Positions 41,453 to 45,492 of a DNA stretch of 64,000 nt are shown in pieces (within the stretch, counting starts at the first letter, position 1; each line of letters begins with the position of its first letter). Made by a program: the position numbers and the translations under genes. The notes under the pieces are model-generated. The model did not search any database. It was not told where the DNA came from and saw only the letters and a list, made by a program, of their open reading frames with translations. Source of the stretch: an uncultured Alphaproteobacteria bacterium (GTDB taxonomy: Bacteria > Pseudomonadota > Alphaproteobacteria > Pelagibacterales > Pelagibacteraceae); contig CAIQAD010000002.1 of NCBI GenBank assembly GCA_903869725.1, forward strand, positions 1-64,000, read 5' to 3'.

Positions 41453-41965
41453 TTATTTTTTCTTATTTTCAACTTCAGATTTTGGTGCTGCTTTTTTGGC
41501 TGATTGAATTTCCACTGTTTCTGTTGGTGTTTGCACATCTAATCCTTCTACTACTTCTTTTTTAGGAAGAGGTTGAATTATATCAACTCCAATTTTTTTT
41601 TTAATTTTTTCAGTAATTCTTGCAGATTTACCTGTTCTGTCTCTTAAATAATATAATTTTGCTCTTCTTACTTTTCCACTTCTTATTACTTCAACTGACT
41701 CTACGTTCGGGCTATGGATTGGAAACAATCTTTCTACACCCTCGCCAAATGAAATTTTTCTAACAGTAAAAGTTGAATTAATTCCTTTATTTTTTTTTGC
41801 GATACATACTCCCTCATACGCTTGTATCCTTTGTCTTTTTCCCTCGATAATTCTAACATTAACTTTTAAAGTATCACCTGGTGAAAATTCAGGTATTTTC
41901 TTTTTTTCACCGATTTGCTTTATATGTAGTTTATCTATTTCATCTATTCTCATGGAAATTTGCAT
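41453..41965 (-). CDS. rplS: 50S ribosomal protein L19 (C-terminal extension)
   Basis: [77 protein letters not shown]. Confidence 0.95.
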
Positions 41966-41975
41966 TAAAAATTAT

Positions 41976-42662
41976 TTATTTGAGATATTTTTGCCATAAA
42001 TCTTGTCTTCGCCGACGTGTTATATCCTCAGACTGCGCCAAGCGCCAGTCCTTAATTTTAGCGTGATTTCCAGATAAAAGAACTTCCGGTACAGTTTTAC
42101 CCTTCCATTCTTGGGGCTTTGTATATTGAGGATATTCTAGCAAATTATTTTCAAAACTTTCTTCATTTAGTGAATTAGAATTGCCTATAACGCCCGGTAA
42201 TAATCTTATTATAGAGTCTAAAAAAACAAATGACGCCGTCTCTCCCCCTGATAGAATAAAATCTCCAATACTAATTTCTCTAATTTTTCTAATATCAATA
42301 ACTCTTTGATCAATACCTTCAAAATGTCCACATATAAGATCAACACCGTTTCTAGAGGATAATTCTTTAGCAATTTTTTGATTTAGTAATTCACCTTTTG
42401 GACTTAGATAAATTAAATCATTTTTAGAATCCTTAATATTATTTTCAAGACAATTATCTATTACATCAGCTCGCATGACCATTCCGCTGCCTCCACCAAA
42501 TGGTGTATCATCTACGCTACCATGCTTATCTAAAGCATAGTCTCTGATATTAATTATATCTAGAGACCATATTTTTTTTTCACGAGCTTTTTTATAAAGG
42601 CCAATATCTAAAATTCCTGGAAAAAATTCTGGATACAAAGTAAAAATTTTAGCTGACCACAT
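41976..42662 (-). CDS. trmD: tRNA (guanine37-N1)-methyltransferase
   Basis: FTLYPEFFPGILD, DDTPFGGGSGMVM, GHFEGIDQRV, SIGDFILSGGE. Confidence 0.95.
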   Translation of the reverse strand: MWSAKIFTLYPEFFPGILDIGLYKKAREKKIWSLDIINIRDYALDKHGSVDDTPFGGGSGMVMRADVIDNCLENNIKDSKNDLIYLSPKGELLNQKIAKELSSRNGVDLICGHFEGIDQRVIDIRKIREISIGDFILSGGETASFVFLDSIIRLLPGVIGNSNSLNEESFENNLLEYPQYTKPQEWKGKTVPEVLLSGNHAKIKDWRLAQSEDITRRRRQDLWQKYLK

Positions 42663-42671
42663 AAAATATGA

Positions 42672-43115
42672 TTATTTTTTCTCCTCAACTGTTACTGATG
42701 CTTCAACTTTTGGCTCTTCAGCTTTTATTGGTTCCGCAGCAACTTCTGGTTTAGGAGTATCTTTATTTTCGGCCTGTGTAGAAGCAGGCTGCTGTGCTGC
42801 TTTTAGTCTTTCTTGAGCTTTTTTCTTAGGCACAGCTTTAATTGGATTGTTTCTTTTTTCAGGAACAGGAGCAAGATTTGCGGCACCTAAAAATTTTGCA
42901 ACTCTTAATGTCGGTTGAGCTCCTATTTTAAGCCAGTGTTTTATTCTATCTATTTCAAGATTAATTCTTTCTGAATTATTTTTTGGCAACAGTGGATTAA
43001 AAAAACCTAATTTTTCAATAAACTTTCCATCTCTTGGATTTCTTGAGTCTGCAACAACGATTTTATAAAAGGGCCTTTTTTTTGTCCCTCCTCGCGCTAG
43101 TCTTATTTTTAACAT
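42672..43115 (-). CDS. rpsP: 30S ribosomal protein S16 (long Ala/Glu/Lys/Pro-rich C-terminal extension)
   Basis: [41 protein letters not shown]. Confidence 0.96.
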
Positions 43116-43125
43116 TTTTACCTTT

Positions 43126-44487
43126 CTATTTTAAGTTATTAAATAATTCTGGAGGAATGCCTTCCATTCCACCAAAGTTTCTTCCGCCACTTTGAGACAT
43201 TTTTTTCATCATTATAGTCATCATTTTATGCTGTTTTAGAAGTTTGTTTACTAAAGTAATGTCTGTGCCCGATCCTATTGCAATTCTTTTTTTTCTTGAA
43301 CCTTCAATAATTTTTGGATTGTCTCTTTCTTTTTTTGTCATTGATAAAATAATTGCTTCTTGTTTATTAAGTATACTTTCGTCAATATCAGCCTCGTCAA
43401 TTTGTTTTTTTATTTTAGAAATACCAGGAATCATCCCTATAATTTTACCCATTCCACCTATTTTTTTCATTTGACGAATTTGTTTTAAATAATCATTAAA
43501 TGTAAATTGTCCTTTTTTAAAATTTTCTTCAAGTTCTTCTACCTCTTCTCGTTTTAAATTTTGAGAAACCTTCTCAACTAAAGAAACAACATCTCCCATT
43601 CCTAAAATTCTATTTGCAATTCTTTGTGGATGAAAAATTTCTAAATCATCAACTTTTTCACCTGTTCCTAAAAATTTAATAGGACAACCAGTAACTGAAC
43701 GCATACTTAAAGCTGCACCACCTTTTCCATCACCATCAATTCTAGTTAAAATCACTCCAGTTAAATCAACCGTTTTTTTAAATTCATTTGCTATGTTTAC
43801 AGCATCTTGTCCTGTTAAAGAATCTGCCACTAAAAAAGTTTCTATAGGATTGATGATTTTCTTTAGATTATTTAATTCGGCCATCATCACACTATCAATT
43901 TGTGTTCTGCCGGCAGTATCAAAAATAATTACATCCGTACCGGACAAATTTGCAGTCGCTAATGTTCTTTGCGTTATTTCAATTGGTAACTGACCTTCAA
44001 TAATAGGGAGTGTTTGTATATTATTTTGATTACCTAAAAATTCTAATTGTTTTTGTGCAGCTGGTCGATAGACGTCTAAACTAGATAGTAAAATTTTTTT
44101 ATTAAAATTTTTTTCAATATACTTTGCTATTTTAACTGATGTAGTTGTTTTTCCAGAACCTTGCAAACCAACAAATAACATCTTTGCTGGAGGCACTGTA
44201 TTTAAGTTAATATTTGAATTTTCTCCCCCTAAAACTTTTATTAACTCATCATTAACAATTTTAATTAATAATTGAGCTGGAGTTAAAGATTTTAAAACTT
44301 CTTGTCCAATTGCTTTTGGTTTGACATTTGCAATAAACTCTTTTGCAACTGATAATGCTACATCAGACTCAAGTAACGCCTGTCTAATTTTTCTTAAACC
44401 CTCATCAACTTGTTCTTCATTTAAACGCGTTCCTTTTTTAAAAAAAGAAAATACATCTTCAATTTTACCGGTCAAATTTTCAAACAT
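43126..44487 (-). CDS. ffh: Signal recognition particle GTPase Ffh
   Basis: [36 protein letters not shown], Met-rich M domain. Confidence 0.97.
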
Positions 44488-44509
44488 TTTTTATCTCCAG
44501 CAGCAATCG

Positions 44510-44589
44510 CACTAGTGGGCGAATATCGCTGACTAGTGTTGATCTCCTTCATTAGAAGGACACCACAAAACTTGCTTATATTTTTGTGG
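44510..44589 (-). ncRNA. Structured 5' leader of ffh (three tandem hairpins)
   Basis: CCACAAAA 44563-44570 / TTTTGTGG 44582-44589; TCCTTC 44545-44550 / GAAGGA 44555-44560 (loop ATTA); CACTAGT 44510-44516 / ACTAGTG 44532-44538 enclosing GCGA-ATA-TCGC 44519-44529. SD GGAGAT at 44494-44499, ATG at 44487. Confidence 0.6.
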
Positions 44590-44667
44590 AAAATTTGATT
44601 AAAAGTATATTTTAGTATTTTAAAAGTCAACAATTGAGAATATTTCTAAACTAAAGAAATAAAACAA

Positions 44668-45492
44668 ATGACAGAGATTAAAGCTTACAAAATGGATGGG
44701 TTAGGTAACGATTTTGTGATCATTGATGGTAGAAACAACAAAATAAGTCTTAACAAAAAGCAAATATTAAATATCTCTGATAGAAAAAAAGGTCCTGGTT
44801 GTGATCAGGTAATTTTAGTTGAAAAAGATAAAGAGAAAAAAACAAACGCTAAAATAACTTTTTATAATTCTGATGGCGGTGAAATTTATGCATGTGGAAA
44901 CGGCAGTCGTTGTGTTTCTTATTTTTTAATGAATGAAAAAAAATTAATAAAATCTAAAATAAATACAAAAAGCGGGGTTCTTACTGCTAAATTAAAAGGT
45001 GCTTTTGAAATATCCGTAGATATGGGCAAACCTAATTTTGATTGGAAAAAAATTCCACTTTCTCATGAAATGAATCATAAAAAAATAATCATAAGTGTTA
45101 AAAATTTTAAAAATTTACATGGGTATGCTCTTAGCGTTGGCAATCCGCATATTATTTTTTTTAAAAATATAACAATAGAAAATTTAAAAAAAATTGGACC
45201 GCTTATAGAAAATTATCACTATTTTCCCGAAAGATGTAATGTAACTTTTGCTGAAAAAATTGGCAAAAATGATATCTCTGTTAAAGTTTGGGAAAGAGGG
45301 GCTGGCTTAACACAAGCTTGTGGCACAGCAGCTTGTGCAACAATGGTTGCTGCTAACAAATTAGGCCTTTGTAAAAAAAAAGTTAATATTCATTTTAAAA
45401 ACGGAACATTACAAATTGAATGGATGCCAAATAAAAATATTATAATGACTGGTTCTGTATCTCAAATAAGATCTATTAGTCTTAAAATATAA
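44668..45492 (+). CDS. dapF: Diaminopimelate epimerase
   Basis: MDGLGNDFVIID, YACGNGSRCVSYF, ERGAGLTQACGTAACATMVA. Confidence 0.96.
   Translation: MTEIKAYKMDGLGNDFVIIDGRNNKISLNKKQILNISDRKKGPGCDQVILVEKDKEKKTNAKITFYNSDGGEIYACGNGSRCVSYFLMNEKKLIKSKINTKSGVLTAKLKGAFEISVDMGKPNFDWKKIPLSHEMNHKKIIISVKNFKNLHGYALSVGNPHIIFFKNITIENLKKIGPLIENYHYFPERCNVTFAEKIGKNDISVKVWERGAGLTQACGTAACATMVAANKLGLCKKKVNIHFKNGTLQIEWMPNKNIIMTGSVSQIRSISLKI

Follow-up and report, generated by a model that had tools for sequence, protein, structure and literature searches.

The ffh leader and its operon

The window, a 64-kb stretch of DNA (64,000 nucleotides) from an uncultured member of the Pelagibacteraceae, carries on its minus strand a compact gene cluster headed by ffh and, in the gap between dapF and ffh, a leader with three hairpins. 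The nearest named locus, judged by the high identity of both Ffh and TrmD, is that of Ca. Fonsibacter (L194), and the window probably belongs to a SAR11 bacterium related to that genus. The genes of the cluster are tightly spaced, with 10 nt between ffh and rpsP, 9 nt between rpsP and trmD and 10 nt between trmD and rplS. The SAR11 operon contains no rimM, and here trmD accordingly follows rpsP without it (42662-42672), an arrangement that differs from that of most other Alphaproteobacteria examined. The locus comprises the following features:

41453-41965, minus strand: rplS (ribosomal protein L19), which closes the compact cluster, from the ORF list and comparison with relatives
41976-42662, minus strand: trmD, directly 3' of rpsP, from the ORF list and comparison with relatives
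42672-43115, minus strand: rpsP (ribosomal protein S16), the proposed ligand gene, of the family of PF00886 matches in relatives
43126-44487, minus strand: ffh, first gene of the operon, its translation aligned to TIGR00959-positive loci
44497-44501, minus strand: conserved GYUGG tail, alignment columns 56-60, just 3' of the end of the Rfam model
44502-44553, minus strand: match to Rfam RF01793 (ffh), 53.7 bits against a gathering cut-off of 35, full model (1-52)
44510-44538, minus strand: hairpin P3, with an invariant C.C mismatch, core of RF01793
44543-44564, minus strand: hairpin P2, GGUGUCCUUC-UAAU-GAAGGAGAUC, found class-wide, its 5' arm outside the Rfam model
44563-44589, minus strand: hairpin P1 (8 bp), in Pelagibacterales only, from covariation and sequence reading
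44604-44630, minus strand: putative promoter, TTGACT (44630-44625) and TATACT (44609-44604), read by eye

The hairpins lie where a preliminary description of the locus had placed them, and its three perfect stems of 8, 6 and 7 bp, with a nested GCGA/TCGC, are all present on the minus strand. P1 pairs CCACAAAA (44589-44582) with UUUUGUGG (44570-44563) over 8 bp. The core of P2 is formed by UCCUUC (44560-44555) and GAAGGA (44550-44545), 6 bp that can be extended to a longer form, GGUGUCCUUC/GAAGGAGAUC, if one G.G mismatch is included. The outer stem of P3 joins CACUAGU (44538-44532) to ACUAGUG (44516-44510) over 7 bp and encloses a nested stem of GCGA (44529-44526) and UCGC (44522-44519), and the CA/CC internal loop of this hairpin holds the invariant C.C mismatch. 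At its 3' end the leader runs into the ffh Shine-Dalgarno sequence GGAG (44498-44495), which bears out the earlier placement of the leader beside it; the GYUGG tail overlaps this sequence in this genome, and the ffh ATG stands at 44487. Of 200 dinucleotide shuffles of the 109-nt leader, 199 fold less well than the leader itself (z = -4.16); for a 131-nt version z is -3.81. Together with the covariation of its helices in relatives, described below, this upholds the idea of a structured leader.

A TTGAC box is similarly placed in SAR11 and PS1 relatives, and a strict consensus scan of the leader region gave no promoter site. If the boxes read by eye serve as the promoter, transcription would begin shortly before P1. 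A 25-codon open reading frame within the leader, which starts from the ATG at 44552 and overlaps the start of ffh, was rejected: it is open in the genus and closed in relatives, and it is also countered by the variation of 1-2 nt in motif length.

Identity of the element

The RF01793 match spans P3, the 16 bases before it and bases after it, and is the sole gathering-level Rfam match within the whole window; weak matches to snoRNA and microRNA families fall below their own cut-offs and were put down to chance. Since the match is full-length and lies in the same ffh/dapF gap, the element is a member of a known family. The preliminary description had mentioned candidate structured RNAs near ffh in Pelagibacter and pointed to an Rfam covariance-model search as the way to check for one; this was correct, and the RNA is the published "ffh motif".

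In 2009 Meyer et al. (PMC2704228) described the motif from Ca. Pelagibacter ubique, where it lies between ffh and dapF, as one bulged hairpin with no known function that might regulate ffh. The element in the window shares this genomic position, the bulged hairpin with its covarying stem and the two conserved cytosines in the bulge. It departs from the published family in that a second hairpin, class-wide in distribution, lies directly 5' and partly beyond the model, and in that the GYUGG tail runs beyond the 3' end of the model. The motif is also found before rpsP where there is no ffh, so that a position preceding ffh, which holds in the window, is not universal across the family. The RF01793 model itself starts mid-way through conserved hairpin P2, which makes the family extendable at its 5' end.

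Covariation and conserved letters

Across 77 diverse sequences P3 has 93.6% standard pairs and double changes at 10 of its 12 pairs, with 146 double-change cells against 39 in shuffles. One of its pairs is non-standard, being A.C in most sequences and C-G, G-U or U-A elsewhere. The facing cytosines of the C.C mismatch are kept in 76/77 and 77/77 sequences, and the pairs C17-G47 and C27-G37 are invariant. Within Pelagibacterales (33 sequences) P1, P2 and P3 all keep their pairing by means of double changes; a lack of compensatory changes had been named in advance as the observation that would speak against a structured leader, and all three helices display them. In P1 the double changes affect 3 of 8 pairs (32 distinct Pelagibacterales sequences), and this hairpin is absent from the PS1 sequences compared. 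The 3' arm of P2 is the conserved GGGAUC, within the Rfam model, and its 5' arm (GGUC, GGUGUC) lies outside. The mean stem score of P2 is 5.5, compared with 3.3 (sd 0.16) for a control in which the sequences exchange arms, a margin that is indicative because the swap preserves composition and not relatedness.

Two alternative pairings put forward in the preliminary description, CAGC:GCUG and TCGC:GCGA, can form in this sequence, but they fare hardly differently from shuffles: 60.6% of cells are paired for the former against 58.8%, and 74.7% for the latter against 73.6%, with no excess of double changes over shuffles for either. Pairing of the ffh Shine-Dalgarno sequence with UUUCC at the foot of P1, an idea that came from the minimum-energy fold of the leader, is likewise not supported (78.6% against 79.7%, no covariation). 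A competition distinct from these alternatives may exist between P1 and the foot of P2. In the Pelagibacterales alignment A2 (columns 20, 42 and 68), column 42 shows covariation with two positions, its P1 partner and a base of the P2 foot, which suggests that the two helices may compete for three bases, although the double covariation comes from a single division of the sequences, 7 against 26, and may reflect just one event.

Distribution and gene neighbourhood

Within the order, 348 of the 397 genomes searched carry the motif. At the level of the class it turned up in 112 of 387, with 86 of these scoring above the family cut-off. The class count is a lower bound, as scoring was limited to the best candidates from each genome, and the 275 of 387 class genomes with no match are partly false negatives of the fast filters used. 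Wherever it is listed, the motif occurs in one copy per genome. A weak, well-placed form stands before ffh in Gluconobacter and Neokomagataea; the 2009 paper reported no motif in Rhodospirillales (PMC2704228).

Natural rearrangements allow the genes that remain in cis with the motif to be intersected. The order motif-ffh-rpsP on one strand is found in 70 of 78 genomes with a match, and rpsP is in cis with the motif in 75 of the 78. The other three comprise a motif at a contig edge (G539), an assembly in which ffh is a fragment and rpsP was not found (G587), and a sub-threshold match of 34.5 bits (G402) on a contig other than that of ffh/rpsP in a contaminated assembly, which was taken to be a false positive. 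The trmD-rplS pair is separated from rpsP in Hyphomicrobium-like genomes, Filomicrobium, Lentibacter and one other MAG; the motif is found at ffh-rpsP (contig L280 ends inside ffh), and no motif was found near the detached trmD-rplS loci. In G632 rplS is alone, 2 Mb away. The sole gene in cis with the motif in every checkable locus is rpsP. The distance from motif to gene ranges from 13 to 288 nt; in SAR11 at most about 15 nt separate the motif from the start codon, and it lacks a terminator.

The signal recognition particle (SRP) is normally regarded as near-universal. A PS1-clade-like marine family (f41) appears, from its genome sequences, to be without the whole SRP pathway. In all five of its drafts (G435, G540, G620, G687 and G748, with loci such as L064 and L083; 93-97% complete), which represent essentially one lineage, no match was found with the Ffh model, with the SRP54 domain PF00448, by which FtsY is detected as well, or with the model for 4.5S RNA, while three control genomes were positive for Ffh, the SRP54 domain and 4.5S RNA in the same searches. 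The nearest named relatives of the family are PS1-clade single-cell genomes, a link that rests on TrmD similarity. In 5/5 of these genomes the motif stands directly before rpsP, 51-58 nt upstream of the start of the S16 domain match, with no ffh match anywhere, and the motif-rpsP layout recurs on two named PS1-clade single-cell contigs (L175, L177). P3 is 100% paired in the seven distinct sequences of the PS1-like group, and two of its pairs have changed in both partners, indicating that the hairpin is not decaying.

A proposed S16 leader

These comparisons establish a conserved, covarying two-hairpin RNA that is single-copy, in cis with rpsP wherever this could be checked, and retained where Ffh is not found. 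The element is very likely a cis-acting 5' leader of the ffh-rpsP-trmD-rplS cluster, that is, of the rpsP operon. Most ribosomal-protein operons are controlled by one of the proteins they encode, which binds a 5' leader. A 2024 review gave no information on the regulation of the trmD operon (PMC10931766), and the only S16 leader predicted to date is that of Flavobacteria (PMC7247131). We therefore propose a ribosomal-protein leader with S16 as its ligand, to which we assign a probability of roughly 0.55. The flavobacterial element (Eckert and Weinberg 2020, PMC7247131) is likewise a predicted S16 leader before rpsP(-rimM), but it belongs to another phylum, ffh goes unmentioned in its description, and the likeness drawn here is one of gene position. 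Relative to the 2009 catalogue, what is new is that the evidence suggests rpsP (S16), and not ffh, as the target. More tentatively, RF01793 would then be misnamed and, together with the second hairpin, would constitute the alphaproteobacterial S16 autoregulatory leader of the rpsP-trmD operon, kept in PS1-clade bacteria after the loss of the whole SRP. No earlier reassignment of RF01793 was found in the open-licence literature, to which the search was confined, so that one may have been overlooked.

Could Ffh itself be the ligand? Under such autoregulation, suggested in the preliminary description as control of SRP levels and also raised as a possibility in the 2009 paper (PMC2704228), free Ffh would bind the leader and repress its own translation, and it is ffh that comes first after the motif in the 70 collinear genomes and in SAR11. 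However, the motif persists, still covarying, before rpsP in the five genomes where Ffh, FtsY and 4.5S RNA were not found, and the leader has no match to SRP RNA (RF00169) even at E up to 1, which makes this reading improbable. The 4.5S RNA does work together with the protein that the operon's first gene encodes, but it is encoded at a separate locus elsewhere in the genome, and the motif is unlike its Ffh-bound part (PMC2704228). Mimicry of SRP RNA by the leader was rejected on the same two grounds, the missing RF00169 match and the five motif-bearing genomes in which Ffh was not found. The prospects of L19, TrmD or RimM as ligand are similarly poor. All three are usually encoded in the same operon, and the ligands of ribosomal-protein leaders are often not the product of the first gene (PMC7247131), but rimM drops out of the cis set in SAR11, rplS in G632, and trmD together with rplS in the Hyphomicrobium-like genomes; as a ligand could act in trans, these are arguments and not proofs.

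The leader might also act in cis with no operon protein as its ligand, for example as a transcription attenuator, a site of RNase processing or a 5' hairpin that stabilises the RNA. In 21 of 77 sequences a run of at least four T comes after P3 and resembles an intrinsic terminator (L064, L077 and L080 are examples), so attenuation may act in some lineages, and the very variable spacing to the gene would suit an element of this kind. The leader described here shows no such resemblance, with no terminator-like site in 44480-44700, and the unpaired C.C and the C-G closing pairs, all invariant, point together with the GYUGG tail to letter-specific recognition, leaving a non-binding element as a minority prospect that deserves some weight. 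Rfam types the family as "sRNA", small-RNA detection in a metatranscriptome is cited in the 2009 paper (PMC2704228), and an RNA-seq transcript annotated RF01793 is known from Mesorhizobium (PMC5596092). A small RNA acting in trans is nonetheless highly implausible for a motif that occurs once per genome directly before an operon and that in SAR11 sits so close to the start codon, with no terminator of its own found.

If S16 is the ligand, free S16 would bind the hairpins, namely P3 with its C.C mismatch and probably P2 as well. Bound beside the first ribosome-binding site, it would lower translation of the first gene, and the tight spacing would carry repression onward to rpsP and the genes behind it. 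The hairpin touches the ffh Shine-Dalgarno sequence in SAR11, so protein binding could block initiation there; the range of motif-to-gene distances across the family is not well explained by a single steric-block mechanism. The foot of P2 (GGUC/GAUC) presumably resembles 16S helix 12 in Alphaproteobacteria, which we take as a lead. In 16S rRNA, S16 touches h12 at its base and has its binding site at h15/h17 (PMC5591316).

Should the reassignment hold, it would supply both ligand and target for a widespread alphaproteobacterial RNA and provide the trmD operon with a control mechanism that can be tested. Where ffh heads the operon, synthesis of the SRP protein would also be linked to ribosome synthesis. 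The intersection of cis genes across natural rearrangements is applicable to other leaders.

The S16 protein of the PS1-like family has a long alanine/proline-rich C-terminal tail (L083 3922-4437, L064 1613-1918; clear in L083), and contigs of this family often break at it.
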